A stretch of DNA of 64,000 nt from Polytrichum commune (taxonomy: Eukaryota > Streptophyta > Polytrichopsida > Polytrichales > Polytrichaceae), in the NCBI GenBank assembly GCA_950295325.1, contig OX485809.1:40581081-40645080 (forward strand). The letters run 5' to 3'. Each line of letters opens with the position of its first letter. Within the stretch, counting starts at the first letter, position 1. Of the stretch, positions 6,979 through 61,869 are shown one piece after another. The position numbers and the translations under genes are program-made. A model generated the notes under the pieces. That model was not told the origin of the DNA and made no database searches. It saw only the letters and a program-made list of their open reading frames with translations.

Positions 6979-7050
6979 TGCCTCCACAGAGGATCGAACT
7001 CTGGACCTTCAGTTTACAAGACTGACGCTCTACCACTGAGCTATAAAGGC
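6979..7050 (-). tRNA. tRNA-Thr(UGU)
   Basis: The minus strand folds into a full 72-nt cloverleaf. Acceptor GCCTTTA pairs with TGGAGGC (with G-U pairs); the D stem is GCTC/GAGC; the anticodon stem TCAGT/ACTGA closes the loop CTTGTAA with anticodon TGT; the T arm is CAGAG-TTCGATC-CTCTG; the discriminator is A. The A box (TAGCTCAGTGG) and B box (GTTCGATCC) are intact, and a TTTT tract a few bases downstream can serve as the pol III terminator. There is no intron and no encoded CCA, as expected for a nuclear gene. It decodes ACA and, by wobble, ACG. Confidence 0.93.
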
Positions 7051-19734: not shown

Positions 19735-21395
19735 TGAAGAGAAACAATGAAGGTATACAATACACCACCAACACAACGACAAAACACCGCACCCCAACTC
19801 GCCATAGACCCCAAATCACCAGTAGCAAGGATCTACTGTACACACAAGATTGAGACCCCAAGTTTGTAAGGCAATTTGGTCACACACAAACACAAATACA
19901 ACTTGATTACCTAGACCTACAGCAAAATGCCCACCAATTGTCGATGCCAAGACACCCTAGGACCAAACATGCACCAAACATCCATATCACAAGAATAGCA
20001 CCAACGGACACCATAAACAACAAGCCTACGATGGATTCAAAAACAAGAGAAAACAATGGCATTGCTATTGTTCTCACTTGCATCATTCCGCAGTGTATAT
20101 ACACACTCATCTTCCCCACAAAATCTCTCACAATATCACAATATTCAATTCCATCAATGTCCTCCCACATTTCTCTACAAAGACGTTCATCAAATCCTAC
20201 CATCAATACTCTCACATTATTCTTCCAATCCTCACCACTATACTATCCAACTCCATACTCTACACTGAACCTACACCACAAATCTCATAGTCTCATCAAT
20301 ACACTCCTCAACTCTCTCGCCCTCCTCCGATCCACCACCTCAATACCTCTCTCTCACAACTCACACTTCGCCATCCCCCCCCCCCCCCCCCCCCCCGAGC
20401 ACCAGCAAGCAAGCCCAACCTCCGCACTCTATTCCTCCAAACCACAATAAATCGCCACCAACACCCAGACACACCCAACAACAAACCCCCACCAAAAACA
20501 CAACAACGATACAAACCCCACTTACTAGATGCAAATCACAAAACAACACCGCTCAAACCACCAATCAAAAAATAGCTTACCTCCACGATGCTACGCCCCC
20601 CCCCCCCCCAACACACACACCCACACACACACACACATAAACAACAACACCTGCATGCATAAACTGATTCCCATCATTCCAAAACATGCCACCAAATATA
20701 CCCACAAAATCGCAAGGTACACCAACATCTCCCCCTCAAAGCACACAACACCCACTTCACCAATGCTTGATCTAACATCCTCAAATCTTCAACTCATCAC
20801 ATAGAACACATGGCACATAAGCATGCCATGAATCCAAGAACTCCTACACAATTCCCCACATGCACCACACATCATCACGATACAAGAAAGCAAGCTGCAC
20901 AAAAACAAATCCATCACATACATAGACAAAAAAAAAGAGTCAAAGAATACAAAAGCATCTACAACAATGCCAATAACACCACACCACACCACAAAGACCA
21001 AACCCTATGCCCCATACTTACCCACTCATGATGGAATACTGACAATGATACACAAATATCTCTATACAAGCAAAAATATCACCAAAAATTCCAACGCCAT
21101 CCGACATATCACCATACCTACAAACCCTCATAATTAACAATAAACCCATCACCCCTATGCTCATACTACAAATTTACATGTTCGCACACCAAGAAGATGT
21201 ATATCTCATTCAAGAAATCAAAGACCAAATTAGAATACTTAAAAACCAACATCCAAACCATCACACTATATTGGGGGGTGATTTCAATAGGGACATATTC
21301 CTCCAAGGACGACTAACCAACGGAACCACAACCCCCCTAACCTAGATGACTATGAATGGGACCAATATATTCATGTAGCTTGGTTAAAACATGAA
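19735..21395 (+). mobile_element. LINE 5' part: ORF1-like region and endonuclease end
   Basis: The plus strand becomes extremely C/A-rich and G-poor, the same bias as the RNase H part at 23.9-25.8 kb. An open frame of 170 codons (19938-20450), rich in His, Thr, Ser and Pro and interrupted by C homopolymers, occupies the ORF1 position but shows no domain. From about 21090 a broken frame reads SDISPYLQTLIINNKPITPM…ILQIYMFAHQEDVYLI…ILGGDFNRDI. This is the end of an apurinic-type endonuclease, with the GGDFN motif diagnostic for non-LTR retrotransposons. A one-base shift near 21335 is needed to continue into NLDDYEWDQYIHVAW. At least two frameshifts make it dead. The element breaks off near 21395 and no reverse transcriptase follows. 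Confidence 0.75.
20380..20640 (+). repeat. C homopolymers and (CA)n microsatellite within the LINE
   Basis: Runs of C lie near 20377-20396 and 20597-20609, followed by (CA)n to about 20637. These slippage-prone tracts probably explain frame loss in the ORF1-like region. Confidence 0.85.
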
Positions 21396-22172
21396 GATGA
21401 TAAGGCGCACGGGTTGATATTCACATTGGCAAAAGAGAGGCTAATGTTTTCTTTTCTTTTCTTTTCTTTCTTTTGCATGGAAGTACTACACTGCAAGTTA
21501 AGAAGGGTATACTTGTGACAGTATACTTTTACCCAAGTTAGTAAGGCATGTATGAAATGTCATAGTAGTAAATAATCAACCGCACTCAAAAAGCTATAAT
21601 ATCAACCTCCTTAATGTCCCTCCCCTTGTATCCTGAAACCCTAGGGAATGGACGTTCTCATATAAAAATCACTCCTTATTGTCACGTTTCCCTCCCATGT
21701 ATCATTAGTTTTGACATCAAAATAAACCACCAAAGCATTCAAACCACACGCATCACGTTGTCAACGTTGTAATTATTGTCATTATTGCAATGTTGACTTT
21801 GTGTTATTCCAAAAGTCACATGCTACACTAATTCTCTTTTATTACACATTCATTTCAAATGAATCGGACTACACTAATTCAGGGTCTTTGAACCTAATTC
21901 CGGTGTCAATTATTTTAAAACTAGCAACCTCCAGGCTGCATACTATTTCAACGGTTTTATGTTGGATGAATGAGAGGTACACTCATATGTGTGATAACTC
22001 CCACTCTCCATGTACTTGCAAGTAAACGTTCTGCCAATTGTAATCAAGGAGAGCGATATGCTTATATGCAACAGTCTAACTTGTCAGAGTTCTCAACATC
22101 AACTGTAAGATTTATTCATTTATGTGGCAAATTTGATCACTGGTTTAACAAGCCTATGCAATTACACATCAC
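21396..22172. other. Foreign filler inside the LINE, no gene seen
   Basis: AT-rich sequence of a different composition from the LINE. It starts with a TTTTC-repeat tract (about 21436-21470) like the LINE's own 3' tail, then plain sequence. A stretch around 21850-22000 resembles parts of 38330-38460 and 45340-45600 (TCTTTGAACC…GTGTCAATT, ATGAATGAGAGGTA), a low-copy dispersed repeat. The LINE reverse transcriptase should lie here but does not. Confidence 0.5.
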
Positions 22173-22539
22173 ATGACATTTAGTGTCATATGGTATTTTA
22201 TGTCATTATGGCAACTTTTTGGATGACACTTCTTATGAATAAGTGAACAAATATTGTCCTAGATGATGGATGAGTTCATCCATTGGCCAAAACCCTACAT
22301 TGTTTTGTCAGCAACTTGTGATGAAAGATTGTCATGGATGATTGAAATTTGGATGAGAAAACACTTGGTAAGTGATAGTAATTGCAACACTGCAAATCTC
22401 TCATCCCCCAAAAACTTTACAAGGAATGACAAATAACTTTGGGTTAACATTTAGTGTTGGTATCACTAAACCCCGGTTTACAATTAGTATTGAGCAAGAC
22501 AATCAAAATTGGTGACACTAAATACCATATTTAGTGTAG
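22173..22539 (+). mobile_element. MITE of the CTACACTAAATA family, copy M1
   Basis: Ends in TGACACTAAATACCATATTTAGTGTAG and contains the family words ATGATGGATGAGTTCATCCATTGGCC, GATTGTCATGGATGATTGAAAT and TTACAATTAGTATTGAGCAAGACAA. The left terminus lacks about 15 bp. It has no coding capacity. It lies 13 bp before the H1 MITE at 22553. Confidence 0.8.
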
Positions 22540-23020
22540 ATCTCAAACCTAAGGGGCGGTTTACAGCATACACCATGAACTCGTCCCACGGAAGATGCCT
22601 TATTCCGCGGTACGAGTTCATGGTCTACATTTCATGGTCCGAGTGCTTAAAATTTTGATTTACAAAGCTGTTGGGCCCCTCACTAGGTGTAAACCGAATG
22701 TGGACCAAGAGGAATGACCATGCGGCAAGAAGTGGATGTGCTGATTTTTTTAATATAAGCCCAAAAAGGGCAGTTTTGGGAAAAAAATGAAGTTTGACCA
22801 TTTTGTTGACTTCAATTTGCCTTCACTTATCTTGTCAATTAGTTTTTTCTTCTTTTCGCCTTAAAGTTTGATCGTTCTCTTGTCATCTCTTGGGCTTCAA
22901 CTGTCTTCACTTCTTGTTAAATGTGTCGAAGATGTGGCTTGCAAATCTTCTCACAACAATTTTTACAAAAAAAAATGAGCGATTCAATTTGTACATGTGA
23001 CATGTACCTTGTGTTGTCAC

Positions 23021-23315
23021 TACACTAAATAGGATATTTAGTGTTTGATTATATCTAATGTTGTTACCACCCAACCTTGCTCAACACTAAATTTCAATTC
23101 TTTGATAATTAATGTTAGAAGATTTCCCATTGCGCTTCTTTTGACCACCCTGATCTACAGTCACTAAACGACTACGTTTTTTTCTTTTTTCTTTTGCAAG
23201 TGTATTTTTTAAACATTTTGGGGCGTGTAATATACCGTTGGAAAGGTATTTTCAAGACCTTTCCAACGGTATATTACACGCTCCCAAATTCTAAACATTG
23301 CAGCTGGTAGACCAA
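23021..23315. mobile_element. Nested ~0.3-kb insertion with a perfect hairpin
   Basis: The copy at 16350 runs from CTTGTGTTGT straight into the sequence that leads to CTCGAATTCTGGAGTTCTAGATG. Here the matching flanks CTTGTGTTGT and CTTGAATTCTTGAGTTCTAAATG are separated by about 295 bp starting CACTACACTAAATAGGATAT. The insert ends in an A-rich stretch. The insert start resembles the terminus of the M-family MITE. No target duplication is obvious. Confidence 0.6.
23223..23281. repeat. Perfect 25-bp inverted repeat, 9-nt loop
   Basis: Arms 23223-23247 and 23257-23281 (GCGTGTAATATACCGTTGGA… and its exact complement) are identical over 25 bp around the loop ATTTTCAAG. Perfect arms amid decayed repeats suggest recent origin or constraint. 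Transcribed from either strand it would form a stable hairpin. Confidence 0.9.
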
Positions 23316-23741
23316 AAAAACAAATCTGCACTTGAATTCTTGAGTTCTAAATGCCCCGCTTTGTTTGATGAAACACGTGTAAGCCGGTTTAAGGGGTAGG
23401 GCAAGGTAGTGCTAGTATGTCTCATGGGCTATAATATAATTAAGGCACATAAAAGGTAGATTCATTAAAACATTCTTGAAATGGCATTTCTTCGACATGG
23501 GCCCTTGCCTTTTCCTACCAGACCACCTCTCTTGCCTCTCTCACCGCAAAACCCGTTGGACCATGTCAGTGCATTTATTAGGCCTTAAAAATTATATTTT
23601 GGAGACCTCAACCTCCATGGTCCCTCTGCCATTTTTTCCTTAGTGTAAACCGAAGTTGTCCCGGGACAACTTCAAGAGCCAATCAGTTGCCTTGCAAAGC
23701 CCTGGTCCAACTTCATGGTCCATAGTGTAAACGGCCCCTAA

Positions 23742-23916
23742 GATCCAAAGTGAAGAGTTTGGAGAGACCTCCTTGGTTCAAGCACTTGCCAAACTAGTGC
23801 ATGGTTACACTCATGCTAGGGTGTGAATATGTGTAAATTTGACGATTTTTGAGAGACAAAAAAAGGTCAAGGTAGTATTGACTGAAGAATGTTATGCCAA
23901 TCATCAATCAGGTTGA
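23742..23916. other. Short filler before the LINE 3' part
   Basis: AT-rich sequence unlike the LINE. Composition switches at about 23917, where the LINE reading frame resumes. Confidence 0.5.
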
Positions 23917-25845
23917 GTGGCTGGTTATGATACAACCCTCGAAGACCTCCACTGGGCTAGAATGGCCGCTAAAGAGGATGCACAAACAATCACTATCCTA
24001 ATAATAAACCACAAGGATTGGACACCACAACAAATACCACTCACAAACCCGGACATACACATCCTAGCCACAATCCCACCACATACTATAACATACAACC
24101 CCACGCCAGAATGGCCAAAATACTACCAATACACCGAACCATCCCTTACATCAATCATATGCGTACACAACCAAAGAACCATACTAAATAACACCCAAAT
24201 ACCAACCGCATTACAAAGAATACTCAAAAACACTACACATACACACATAGACATCCACCCCATTAAACCCACACCCACACATTACAACGTTAAATTCTCT
24301 AACGCATGGAAAAATGCCCCTAAAACCACCCCCCTCCAAACCATAAACACCCACATAATACCCCTACCAAGCACATTCACAAACACATACCCCCTTAAAT
24401 TCCACCCACAACAATGCACATATACGGATGGATCATTCATCCCCCCGACCAAAAACTCCGAAGGCCAAATAGAAGGAAACACTGCAGGATCGGGAGTATA
24501 TAGCCCTAACAACAACACAAAAATCTCATAAAGATTACCAGGCTACCAAAACATACTTAGAGCCGAACTCAATGCAATTCTCATTGCCGTTAAAAATATA
24601 CAACTCACTAAAATAGACACACACATATTTACAGATAGCCTTAACAGCATATATCTAATTAACAACCACATCCACCGCCCAACATCACAACACCACCCAG
24701 ACAAATTACTCATAGCAGCAATAGTACGACATATATATTGGACCCCACACAAAATACACATACATAAAGTACGGGCTCATACAGGCATCACCGGAAATGA
24801 AATAGCAGATGCACTAGCAAACGAAGGAACTACCAAAGAAAAACCGAATACCACCCCACGTATACACACTGCCCACTCGACCCCATACTGGCTAGCAGGC
24901 TGCCCAACAGCCACACACGACGGAGCCATCCGTAACTTATGTACATTCATAACCAAAGAACACGAAACAAATGAAGCAGACCTAGCCAAACATAAATTCC
25001 CATACGTAGACAAATGGCTATCCAATACCCAAATAAACCAAAAACTCTCCAACCATTTTTGGCAGGACGAGAAAATCCCGGATACCCAAATCACCCAAAC
25101 ACTCAAATTCAGATACGCCCAATATATGGGTAACCACAGGAAAAACATATTTTGGCCTATCACACACCCAAACCCCAATTGCACGCTATGCCATAAAAAT
25201 GAACGTGACACATGGCCTCACCTACTATCCACATGCGAGCACCCATTCCTTAAAGGACTTAGAATTGCACGACACAACAAAGCAGTACATCTCATCGCCC
25301 AAACATTACAAGCCAACAAAAATACCAGATTCTTTACACTAACAAACGCAGGTCACTTTAATAACCAACCACAAGAACAAACAATACCGGAATGGCTGCT
25401 CCAATGCACTTGCCACCCAAACCCATGCCAATGCCTCGCCAAACTAAGACCAGACATCCTATGCATACTCGGAGCACCAAAACAAATACAACCACCTATA
25501 TCACCCTCTCCCGAACATACGATCCAATTCATTGAATTCACATACTGCCATGATAGATTCCCAGAACAAGCCATCACACACAAACATGCCAAATATGACC
25601 CACTAAATAACATCATCCAAAACAACGGTTGGAAAACCAACCCCCTCATAACCATCACGGCAGGAGTAAGAGGAGCCATACACGAACACTCCATTGAAAA
25701 TCTCACAAAAATAAACATCCCAAAATCAAACATCAAAAAATTGATGAAAGACATACACCAAAACGCCATCAAATACCTTACCTACTTAGTACTAAATAAA
25801 AGAAAACTAGACAACAAACAAAAACCCGTACCCCCTCCTAATTAA
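23917..25845 (+). pseudogene. LINE ORF2 C-terminal part: RNase H and zinc knuckle, one stop
   Basis: A single frame of 643 codons is open except for one TAA at 24529-24531. The first ~165 residues form a connecting region. Then an RNase H domain follows, with TDGS (D171), RAELNAILIA (E217), FTDS (D240) and KVRAHTGITGNEIADALA (H288, D298), the complete D-E-D-D set. Further on, CTLCHKNERDTWPHLLSTC (C422, C425, H435, C440) is the C-terminal CCHC knuckle typical of LINE ORF2. Codons are strongly C/A-biased like the 5' part at 19.7-21.4 kb. In an active element this end of ORF2 would remove template RNA and bind nucleic acid; here the reverse transcriptase is missing and the stop lies inside the RNase H domain. 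Near-intact coding suggests fairly recent loss. The translation aligns with the decayed copy at 50.7-52.0 kb (minus). Confidence 0.85.
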
Positions 25846-26004
25846 AGATAGCTTGTTTGTATTAAAACCCTAGAGCCCACCTCCCCACAGGAGGCATAAA
25901 ACCATACACTGCATCACGGAATACCGTGATCAGTGCATGGCTAACGGGCTCGCATTCACGCTGGTATCATATACTAGCGTTACTTTTTCTTTTCTTTTTT
26001 CTTC
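25846..26004 (+). mobile_element. LINE 3' UTR with three stem-loops and TTTTC tail
   Basis: After the stop comes a structured tail. Stem 1 is CCTCC/GGAGG (25880-25894). Stem 2 is CACTG-c-ATCACGG/CCGTGAT-CAGTG (25907-25935), 12 pairs with one bulge. Then comes GGCTAACGG, then stem 3 ACGCTGGTAT/ATACTAGCGT (25958-25980), 10 pairs with one G-U. A CTTTTTCTTTTCTTTTTTC tract ends it. Structured 3' ends are what LINE reverse transcriptases of several clades recognise. The copy at 50.7 kb keeps GGCTAACGG and stems at the places of 1 and 3 with changed bases. Confidence 0.65.
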
Positions 26005-50684: not shown

Positions 50685-51991
50685 TTTTAGAAGCAAAAAG
50701 AAAACTGATGTCAGTTGGTTGACATGAAGTTGGTCCGTTAGCCATCATCATAATATTTCCATGGGGTAATGCCTATCTTTGCAATAGGTGGACCCATGTG
50801 GAGAGAGAGAAAGTAGGGAGAGGGGGTGGTTATGGGGAAGGGGGATTGGTGTTTCACGATTTTCGAGTTTTAGTTTATCAAGCACAATGATGTGAGGCAT
50901 TTAATAGCATTGAGAGAAATAGTTTCCATGAGGTGGTGTATTTTATGTTTGGGAATGTCCAAGTCCAAAAGGTGTGTGGTGGAAGGTTTGTGTATGGTAC
51001 CTCTTATGTTGGCGGTAAGAGTCATGGGAGGAGGGTGTTCTAACCTAATTGTTGGAGATGGGGGATGAGAATATCATATTTTTTTTGTATGTTTACAAGT
51101 CATAGTTTCTACGGGCAATTTATTGTTGTAGTGTGTAAATTCAATGAAATGTACAATGAGATTTGGGGAAGGAGAGAAAGGTGGGTTGTCAGTGGGTGAT
51201 TTGCCTCTAATACATAGGATGTTCGGTCTAAGTCGCACTAAAACTTTGCAATGTGGGAGGAATGGAAGTAGCCAAGAGGGTAAAGTGATTTCCGATGGGT
51301 GGTTATTGTAAGTTCCGGCATGGATCAATGTGAAGTGCCGAATGAGAGGGTGTGAGAGAAAGGTGGCAACAATCACATGTAGTGCTTTATTATGTCTACT
51401 GGTGGGTTTGTTAATACAACATGATAGGAGGTGAAGGCAAATGTCGAAGGTTACAAGGTGGAAAGAGGGTTGGGTTAAAGAGTTGTTGATTTCGTTGATT
51501 GCCCATGTAGCAACCATATTGAAATTTAAGGACTTGAGTGATTTGGGCATCAATGATGGACTTAGCACACTAGAAAAGGTTAGACCAAGTTTGGTGAATA
51601 TATTCATTGTGTAACCATTTGGAAACATATGGGTAGGAGTTGGCCAAGGAGGAGATGGTGTGTCCACGGTGCCTGTTTTCTATATATGTTTTAATGTTAC
51701 AAATGGAACCACCATGTTGTGTGGAGGTGCGTACACTTGAGGGTCATGTGTACCATGTGTACCTCATAGGGAATGTGGTGTCCTTTGAGGTGGAAGGAGG
51801 GTAGATTGAGGGGAATGGGTCACGTATGGAGCCTCGTTTAACCAAATTGTCAGCTTCATTCTTTCCCATTATGCCAACATGCACTCTGACTCTTTGTATT
51901 GTGAATTTATGTTTAGTGTGTTGGATGTGAAACATGATGTTCTTAGAAAGTGAAAGCGGATTGTGTATGTAATAAAGGCTTATTTATTTCA
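50685..51991 (-). pseudogene. Second LINE copy: RNase H end to 3' tail, decayed
   Basis: Minus-strand frames align with the LINE at 23.9-26.0 kb in order. SLYYIHNPLSLSK is followed by RVRVHVGIMGKNEADNLVKR (end of RNase H, with N-E-AD kept), then NKALHVIVATFL…FTLIHAGTYNNHPSEITLPS, LVRLRPNILCIRGKS, FSPSPNLIVHFIEFTHYNN, and a final block TLTANIRGTIHK…NAIKCLT. Several frameshifts and stops are present and the zinc knuckle is lost. The 3' UTR keeps GGCTAACGG (inverted at 50735-50743), stems at 50772-50788 and 50708-50725, and a TTTTCTTTTTGCTTC tail. It is 5'-truncated within RNase H, as usual for dead-on-arrival LINE copies. Confidence 0.8.
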
Positions 51992-59400: not shown

Positions 59401-61869
59401 AGAGAAGTTGATGGTTAATATTTGAGTTTTGATGAATGATCTTGTATGAATCATGGGCCATCTGCTTGTTTCCCAAAGTGAATAGCTTATGTTGTCAAAA
59501 CGGTTAGTGCATGAGCTTGAAGTAGAATTCTCAGGTGTAAAGCACGTTATTTAATAGGAGTAATTACTGAAGTGTGACTTGTGTGCGGCATAAATAAATA
59601 AAATAAAAGTAACGCCAGAGTTTGGATACACCAACGTGAATGGGAGCCTGTTCCTCTATGCCATGTTCATGTTTGATCAAGCGTCACCGTAAGGGTACTT
59701 CCATTAGTTTTTAGAAAAATCGTTACCCCTAATCTCTAGGGGGATATATGGGGGGTTGTTTGTTGTTTAGCTTCATTTTGTTTAATATCAAGTATGTAAG
59801 GTATTCAATGACGAGGCAAAGAACCGGATGCATAGTCTAACCATTGACAATTGAAGAGGTGAGATTTTGGTACCAGTTACGTACAGTGTGACAACAATTG
59901 GTGAGCAAAAATGTGTGGAAGACATTGTTGTTGGCCAACCAATCAGGAGGACTCATGGCCGATAAGAGTTGACTATTGCCGCTTTCACATTACGAATGAA
60001 TGAATGAAAAAAATGAATTAAAGAAAATGAATTTGAAGTTGCTCAATGAATTAAGAAAATAATTGAAATCAAGTGGAAACCTAAGAGAAGATCAATTGTC
60101 ACAAAGAGCAAGTAATAAGATTTTAAGAATTGGTTCATGAATCACACTTGGACCAATTAATGAATTGGATTATTAAGGGGACTATTTCATACCATTGTCC
60201 AAGGCCATAGTTTGGATTATTGCCCCAACTACATATTATTTAATTATTTTAGGATCGCTTGTGAATTGTGATCAAAATCATCTAAAAGTCAAGGAACGAA
60301 CATTGTTTTGGAACCTACCTAACTTGTTGTAGACAAAAGTTATGGAATCTTACGGATGGATGTCCTTTAGTTGGTCCTGGTAAGGACAATGGCCGGATGG
60401 ATTTATTAAATAAAAGATAAGATTAATTAATTTAGTAACTGGCAGGGTTTTCACTACAATATTTCATGATCCATTCAATTATCACTTAATTAAAGTAGGA
60501 TTGTGGTTCATATTGGGGCGCCCTTGGCCCTAATTATATGACGATACTTGCACTCAAAAGACAATTGATGAGATAAGACTCCTTGCATTGAAAAATACGA
60601 TATAGCGAGTCGTTACTACTAGATTATGGTTGGCTATAAGGGAAAGACTGTACAATTGTATATATTGTATTGAATGACCCTTGTAATCTACCTTTTAATT
60701 TCACATTACCCCATAAAATTCATCTATAACCAATCCAATACAAGTATTCGTACCCGATTCTTACGTAAAACTCATTGTGACTTATCAATAAACCTAATAG
60801 TGACACCTAGAACCCCAAACTGACACTTATTCAACCTTCCTTGTGTGATTTGTTCAATTGAACCCAAAATAAAACCTATCTACACTAATAAAGGGTATAA
60901 CATATTGAACGGTAAGTTATTACAAAACAACAACAACTATGTCACTTTGATATCAATGTCTAACCAATGAAAATTAAATTTTAATGGGTTATAAAGCATA
61001 TTAAGCAATGACTATGGGGCATTTGTCGCAAACACAACAATCAATATCAATAAATGAAGTTAATTTGAAACTTGTAAAAAATGATCACCATAGGGACAAC
61101 TAACCCTATTTACATGTTACTCGACCATGGTCCAGTTGTAATTTCTCTTGTTTAATGTTATTTCCTACCCTATATCAAGGGGACTCTTGAACATGATAGG
61201 GTCAACGAACTCAAATTCATGTCGGTGTTTATTGATGTTTGACTTTTTCTTCTTCTTTTTTCTTGATCACCCCAATTTTGATGAATGACATCATTATTAA
61301 TATCATCATGGATTAGAGATTAAAATATTCATAAAGTTGTGTGGACCGGTGCTACCTATATTGCAATGATCGTGATCGAAGATTCCCAACCTTTTGGCTC
61401 GCTTTGCATTCGATGAGAATGTATGTCACAACTAGATGTAACTTGTAGTATCAAACTTCTCCTTAGAATAGAGCCCCATGTGGTCCACCTATGACTCATA
61501 GTACGTGGTCCGGAGGAACATCATTCCAATCGAGGTTTGACTAATAGGGAATGTGTCAAAGGAGGAGGCATGGGGCTCACCCTTGACACCGGCATGGATG
61601 ACAACGGAACCAAGTTGGACATAAGGTATGTGGGTGTTCTTTGGGTTGTCGTTTTTCGTGTTCTCCAACTTCTAGCGATTAAATTTACACAACAAAACTC
61701 GTGTTGCATCAACGAATTTACAATGAAACATTTGCAAAAACTGGATTGAAAATCGGACTTCCCTTGATTTAGGTATGGTTATTAGAAGTGCATGTTTGCT
61801 GATTTCTTAACTGGATACATAAGTTCTCCCAACTGTGCTCACTATTGAGTGTAAAGTAGTTACTGATAT
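56403..61869. other. Long intergenic stretch, no gene seen
   Basis: 5.5 kb of AT-rich DNA with almost no frames and no recognised gene. It includes an ATACATACATA tract near 58660-58686 and the dispersed repeat piece near 57330-57450. Confidence 0.5.

Follow-up and report, generated by a model that had tools for sequence, protein, structure and literature searches.

A base-paired 3′ tail maintained by compensatory changes in Dualen/RandI-like LINEs of the moss Polytrichum commune and its probable role in template recognition

The last ~110 bases of a group of LINEs in Polytrichum commune form a structured tail, in two helices of which (H2 and H3) compensatory changes have kept the bases paired. 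Support for maintained pairing is strong for the fold as a whole and for H2 and H3. Judged by their domain content, these LINEs form a dual-endonuclease, Dualen/RandI-like group. The tail probably serves them as a 3′-terminal template-recognition element of the stringent type for target-primed reverse transcription (TPRT), a role that we infer by analogy with known systems.

An earlier note on the window (the 64,000-nucleotide stretch analysed here) had placed two LINE tails at 25846-26004 (+) and 50685-50800 (-); both are found there, and every stem pointed out in them is present in the sequence. In copy 1, these are H1, CCTCC/GGAGG (25880-25884/25890-25894, +), the central stem H2 (25902-25919/25924-25940, +), with 12 pairs, four more outside, one A-C mismatch and one bulge, and H3, ACGCTGGTAT/ATACTAGCGT (25958-25967/25971-25980, +). 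In copy 2, on the minus strand, they are H1, CCTAT/ATAGG (50788-50784/50776-50772), and H3, ATGTCA/TGACAT (50725-50720/50713-50708). A closing stem, P0, had been overlooked; its letters differ by lineage (GAGCCC/GGGCTC, GTCC/GGAC or AGTGTCT/AGACACT). The complete layout of lineage 1, as seen on the plus strand of copy 1, is the 5′ strand of P0, GAGCCC (25873-25878), complementary to 25946-25951; hairpin H1 (25880-25894), in the loop of which seven short copies have their 5′ start; hairpin H2 (25902-25940), with a 10-pair outer and a 7-pair inner stem; the junction AAC (25943-25945); the 3′ strand of P0, GGGCTC (25946-25951); the linker GCATTC (25952-25957), which in lineages 1 and 3 usually reads xxATTC or xxAGTC; hairpin H3 of 10 pairs (25958-25980); and a pyrimidine repeat, (TTTTC)n, followed by target-site DNA (25983-26004), with 31 aligned tails diverging past the repeat. 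The copy 1 fold reaches -41.3 kcal/mol against -22.2 +/- 3.2 in 200 shuffles (z -5.96; 0/200 as good).

The second tail, of lineage 2a (50690-50794, -), folds more weakly (z -1.74; 9/200 shuffles as good). It combines P0 GGTCC/GGACC, present in one fold and absent from another, with H1 CCTAT/ATAGG, a short H2 CCAT/ATGG and H3 ATGTCA/TGACAT. A third, decayed tail lies at 59601-59685 (-), matching tail 1 by blastn at E 6e-5 (75% over 61 bases), and its own fold is no better than shuffles (z -0.31). Our covariance model R1, used solely to place tails, matches the second tail at E 6e-4, where antisense copies score too, and the third at E 9e-4; such weak matches prove little, since the antisense strand of the same copies is also matched at E ~2e-4 and weaker. 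A fourth tail-like stretch (TCAACGAACTCAAATTCATG...CTTTTTCTTCTTC) was recognised by eye only near 61170-61265 (+), with a fold no better than shuffles. Across the window, Rfam at gathering score gave a tRNA at 6979-7050 only, and the tails match no known Rfam family.

Upstream of tail 1 is the 3′ part of a LINE ORF (23917-25845, +), containing one in-frame stop, with RNase H (RNase_H E 6e-12 on 24532-25842) followed by the CCHC, RHN and RPD..E motifs of a restriction-like endonuclease (REL), the columns of which are conserved across 12 copies; the best matches of a predicted model of 24874-25842 are six R2 chains. Remains of the APE (EEP) endonuclease part occupy more than one frame at 20832-21345 (+), in ORFs with an LGGDFN motif, and the corresponding part of copies L031 and L177 scores Exo_endo_phos or Exo_endo_phos_2. 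This first ORF of the window is interrupted and frame-shifted. About 2.4 kb of unrelated DNA (21440-23900) splits it between APE and RNase H, probably through a nested insertion or rearrangement. The REL domain of the second LINE persists as remains at 50870-51679 (-), with RHN, RPN and IEFT motifs aligned with 11 other copies.

Other copies have long ORFs, the longest spanning 2,625 codons between stops. In L031 and L177/L178, the domain order is a 2A-like GDIHPNPGP (by eye), APE endonuclease, reverse transcriptase (RT), a PCIF1_WW-like segment and RNase H. L031 scores Exo_endo_phos at E 9e-8, Exo_endo_phos_2 at E 2e-7 and RVT_1 at E 7e-33, and RNase_H was matched at E 7e-16 in the L031 search and at 8e-15 and 4e-13 in the L177-L179 searches. 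The uninterrupted ORF of L177/L178 (Exo_endo_phos_2 E 5e-8) places the APE-type endonuclease N-terminal to the RT; APE sits N-terminally in Dualen. Across 12 copies of three lineages, the alignment of the C-terminal 320 residues shows CCHC, RHN, PD..E and K as invariant or nearly so. The AlphaFold model of this part is modest (mean pLDDT 61), and its six best PDB matches in Foldseek are R2 chains (E 8e-5 to 5e-4, prob 1.00; next match 0.046). The RT matches R2 in the PDB at E 3e-35, and no L1 chain is among its 8 PDB matches up to E 1. Elements that combine the two endonuclease types with RNase H are known in the literature as Dualen/RandI LINEs (PMC4640811). Since APE, REL and RNase H occur in one LINE ORF, the family that the earlier note did not recognise can be placed by its domains as Dualen/RandI-like.

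Searches of the own genome covered 64 contigs totalling 408 Mb, of which seven measure 42-78 Mb. With tail 1 as query, the best 40 of 693 candidates were scored, all 40 at E <= 5e-35; at least 40 good matches make the tail a feature of a repeat family with more copies than the two first noticed. Tail 2 represents an old lineage, found at its own locus and three other places (5 rows). For the comparative analysis, tails were gathered by a C-terminal protein search followed by the DNA behind each match, which avoids picking tails by their structure. Lineage 1 stretches came from 40 of 150 scored protein matches (of 5,078 candidates) and lineage 2 and 3 stretches from 40 of 150 (of 3,052 candidates); 17 tail stretches and 20 of 80 DNA matches were added later. 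By eye, the tail was seen in 40/40 protein-anchored lineage-1 stretches. Among the first 20 stretches of lineages 2 and 3, it was seen in 14, cut by the stretch end in L093 and not seen in L086, L090, L092, L098 and L104. The next 20 included seven with a lineage-3 tail, one (L111) with a lineage-1 tail, 11 with a tRNA-like segment and no tail inside the stretch, and L116 with neither. In the 17 added stretches, the whole tail was seen in nine (L128-L132, L134, L135, L142 and L143; L135 with a deletion), was cut in L138 and L144, lay beyond the end of L139-L141, and was not seen in L133, L136 and L137.

Lineage 1 rows began as the first 83 (sense) of 119 covariance-model matches. Removing the short copies L022, L023, L025, L035, L036, L039 and L040 and the window locus L001 left 75 rows (66 distinct), and removing L016b (misaligned) and L062 and L111 (deletions) left 63, or 65/68 after upstream extension; at 90% identity these form a modest 14 clusters. 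Lineage 3 was reduced to 17/21 rows by dropping L109 and L155 (inserts) and identical rows, and lineage 2b to 15/17 by dropping L100 and L135. The covariation tests covered lineages 1, 2b and 3, leaving aside L132 and the lineage 2a/2c tails (window copy 2, L042, L044, L085, L087-L089, L091, L094, L096, L099, L101, L131 and L134).

The stems are not confined to the two window copies: the same layout, written in different stem letters, recurs in other lineages. Lineage 2b has P0 GTCC/GGAC, H1 CCTAT/ATAGG and H3 ATGTCAA/TTGACGT, and lineage 3 has P0 AGTGTCT/AGACACT (AGTGTCC/GGACACT in L128) and an H3 of ACTCCGG../..CCGGAGT or similar. A further tail lineage is represented by L132 (C1:56471014-56471434, -), which is near the third tail of the window in sequence and folds with P0 AGCCC/GGGCT, H1 CCTTCC/GGAAGG and a 3′ hairpin. 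RNAalifold, run on 68 lineage-1 rows with no stem supplied, recovered five pairs of P0, two pairs of H1 and the greater part of both H2 and H3. Of the 68 lineage-1 rows, 65 retain GAGCC and GGCTC, and P0 is in the single-sequence minimum-energy fold of all 65; it is also in that of 15/21 lineage-3 rows, a longer H1 or another fold winning in the other six. The AA before the 3′ strand of P0 is kept in 67/68 rows of lineage 1, 16/17 of lineage 2b and 21/21 of lineage 3, and both rows that do not have it are gaps at that site. Although its letters differ among the three lineages, P0 can in each of them close H1 and H2 into a three-way junction, with the conserved AA before its 3′ strand. The terminal repeat also varies, being (TTTTC)n in lineage 1, (TTC)n in lineage 3a and (ATT)n-like in lineage 3b, and the conserved structured tail sits just before it, as in LINE tails of the stringent type.

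Covariation was assessed against a null in which substitutions were reshuffled branch by branch with the tree and substitutions kept; the structures under test came from sequences within the sets, but the null begins from the same root states. On a structure-blind MAFFT alignment, the stems of lineage 1 carry 16 compensatory double changes against a null mean of 1.2 and a maximum of 4 in 1000 (63 rows, 31 pairs), and again 16 once P0 is included (37 pairs in 65 rows; null mean 1.27, maximum 6 in 1000). The summed covariation score for this lineage is 235 against 2.3 +/- 28.7, with 0/1000 null runs as high. By helix, the outer part of H2 has 7 double changes (null mean 0.35), its inner part 4 (0.25) and H3 5 (0.31), each count being reached in 0/1000 null runs; within this lineage, P0 and H1 are simply conserved and carry no double change. 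Lineage 3, tested with a structure taken from one sequence (L112), has 11 double changes against a null mean of 1.64 and a maximum of 7 in 1000 (17 rows, 42 pairs). Among the old copies of lineage 2b (15 rows), H3 alone exceeds the null, with 3 double changes against a maximum of 2 of 500, and P0, H1 and the four tested H2 pairs do not rise above it. Structures slid by shifting partners up to five columns yield 0-2 double changes.

The suggestion of a selected RNA structure is partly supported: maintained pairing holds for the whole structure, H2 and H3, but not pair by pair. Across many copies, a single-pair test (R-scape-like, APC-corrected G-test, null by reshuffling Fitch substitutions on a FastTree tree, 66 rows) found no pair at E<0.05, the best being pair 31-66 in H2 with E 1.09. 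The contrast of CCTCC/GGAGG with CCTAT/ATAGG, which had been put forward as covariation, does reflect a stem at the same place, but H1 has no double change within lineage 1 and the contrast is a difference between two lineages. Changes from Watson-Crick to G-U and to A-C pairs occur at 11.6 and 10.8 on internal branches and 26 and 23 on terminal branches in lineage 1, and at 3.4 and 3.1 (internal) and 5 and 8 (terminal) in lineage 3, so there is no G-U excess over A-C in either lineage. Since the two classes are about equal, this comparison does not identify the folded strand, and folding of the plus-strand RNA is not separately shown.

Given these observations and the published cases of R2 and ZfL2 (PMC10499050, PMC4176376, in their relevant passages), we propose that the LINE protein would bind the fold of the tail (H2/AA/P0 and H3) in its own RNA and place the terminal repeat at the nicked target, where target-primed reverse transcription would start by priming on that repeat, with the outcome that mainly RNAs bearing the tail would be copied. 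In favour of such a role are the multi-copy family with a common tail, the compensatory changes and the existence of short copies that contain little but the tail. Several results count against it: no single pair reaches significance, G-U pairs are not in excess, P0 and H1 have no double change in lineage 1, the signal of lineage 2b is in H3 alone, P0 is missing from 6/21 lineage-3 folds and seven short copies have no P0 5′ strand.

Some of the same results would also suit a mutational origin of the pairing, in which quasi-palindrome correction, with a polymerase (reverse transcriptase or replicative) switching template between hairpin arms, keeps the stems in place of selection. H2 and H3 are local hairpins, mismatch-to-Watson-Crick repairs occur both in lineage 1 (6.2 on internal branches, 3.0 on terminal ones) and in lineage 3 (10.9 and 4.0), and the missing G-U excess agrees with it. 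However, such switching poorly explains P0, whose strands are 67 nt apart in copy 1 and complementary in three lineages, and the constant order of stems across lineages and the conserved unpaired AA also speak against it; we regard it as unlikely. Structured 3′ ends can in general stabilise, transport, terminate or protect RNA. The fold might conceivably serve the transcript through stability or transport, transcription end or protection of an unpolyadenylated 3′ end, with no reverse transcriptase contact, and the tail does end in a simple repeat, not poly(A). This we consider quite improbable, given that the tail is found at the insertion joint of aligned copies, including copies of little else, and that LINEs with known recognition have their signal there, as the cited parts of PMC4176376 and PMC10499050 describe.

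An origin of the tail as a SINE or other non-autonomous element captured by the LINE, with a structure inherited from a SINE promoter or RNA, would account for short tail-only copies and for the tRNA-like antisense segment that precedes the tail in some lineage-3 LINEs. It is scarcely credible, and we rejected it, because the eight short copies examined differ in their 5′ flanks, carry target-site duplications and share no common head, and because in lineages 1 and 2 the tail comes immediately or shortly after the ORF; the window tails also have no tRNA match. The tRNA-like segment lies between ORF and tail in L106, L113, L115, L117-L124, L138-L141 and L144, and its minus strand resembles, by eye, an A box and a B box (GGGTTCGATT). 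In L128 and L129, where the stretch is long enough, the tail comes a few hundred bases after it.

Eight short copies (among the best 40 matches of the tail 1 search, and L180) begin inside the tail, each with its own 10-14-base target-site duplication and little but tail. Seven of them (L022, L023, L025, L036, L039, L040 and L180) start in the H1 loop, a hotspot of 5′ truncation, within ~4 bases of ACAGGAGG and in two subfamilies, and are devoid of the P0 5′ strand and half of H1. Two other copies, L032 and L160, begin by eye a short way before P0, and their duplications read CCATAGAGAT and ATGGATCCCAT. The H1-loop starts could stem either from an RNA cut in the loop or from synthesis stopping there; if the RNA were cut, P0 and H1 would not be needed for copying. 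As for a partner SINE sharing the tail, the short copies seen are all headless.

R2 is rDNA-specific and is not known to have an APE. The 3′ UTR core that it needs is small and consists of helices P1 and P2 and, between them, junction J1/2, in which two adenosines are conserved; the change A128U almost completely abolishes TPRT (PMC10499050). The moss tail resembles this core in its succession of stem, junction bearing two conserved adenosines and stem, and its LINE has an R2-like RT and REL. In contrast, the model cited in PMC10499050 gives the 248-nt R2 3′ UTR 11 or more stems, and the strand order at the junction differs, the RNA likeness being one of layout and AA only. The tail might be the dual-endonuclease counterpart of the R2 core, with two helices flanking a short strand whose two adenosines are invariant, all read by an R2-like RT, but this is doubtful. 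If it is true, a LINE RNA handle would have persisted as restriction-like LINEs gave way to dual-endonuclease ones, and a plant-derived TPRT enzyme could be addressed with the tail as a portable tag. Equally doubtful is a second idea, that an RNA cut in the H1 loop might give tail-only templates that are still copied.

Dualen/RandI LINEs were reportedly described in Chlamydomonas by Kojima and Fujiwara in 2005. The moss LINEs share with them APE and REL in one element and RNase H (PMC4640811) and non-poly(A) 3′ repeats, RandI having (ATT)n and (CTATTT)n (PMC3747384) and lineage 3b an (ATT)n-like repeat. They differ in occurring in a land plant at high copy number, in the PCIF1_WW-like segment between RT and RNase H and in a defined structured tail, the class being assigned by domain content; RandI is also described as having SINE partners with a common tail (PMC3747384). 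In the stringent-type L2 clade, UnaL2 ends in a simple repeat (PMC3747384) and the ZfL2 ORF2 protein binds the stem-loop of its own tail (PMC4176376). These elements are like the present LINEs in having a 3′ stem-loop, with a simple repeat at the end of UnaL2 and recognition by the encoded protein known for ZfL2, and unlike them in clade and apparently in having one hairpin instead of a three-way junction and hairpin (PMC4176376). In plants, Ohshima described an L1 3′-end hairpin with compensatory mutations, taken as stringent recognition (PMC3747384); it shares with our tail a plant LINE 3′-end stem with compensatory changes, but belongs to the L1 clade, with a ~50-nt common region and one hairpin with a conserved UCU in its loop and CGAG beside the stem. 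Structured LINE tails are therefore already known, and what seems to be new is the architecture together with the clade: among the matches listed in openly licensed literature, none described this tail or Dualen-like LINEs in a bryophyte.

Few LINEs have had their template recognition worked out in molecular detail. The moss genome contains candidate copies by the thousand (by loose first-look counts) in several lineages, and since one tail layout is kept while its stems change across lineages, recognition could be dissected by comparison and tested by stem swaps. The place of Dualen in the RT tree has been taken as showing that APE-only LINEs arose via replacement of the restriction-like endonuclease (PMC4640811); the RNA handle of dual-endonuclease elements is accordingly relevant to the evolution of LINE template choice.

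Further features of these LINEs were seen outside the tail. The PCIF1_WW-like segment between RT and RNase H occurs in lineages 1 and 3, at L031:4638-6356 (E 3e-8), L178 residues 627-715 (E 2e-6, below Pfam's cut-off) and L179 residues 492-587 (E 1e-10). PCIF1_WW is the family of the cap m6Am methyltransferase. Among the matches listed in openly licensed literature on PCIF1, none described a LINE-encoded PCIF1 segment. The 2A-like GDIHPNPGP lies near the N-termini of L031 and L177, and a second NPGP stands at the very start of L031. The window also contains exons resembling, by eye, alpha-tubulin and a plant MCA-like protein.
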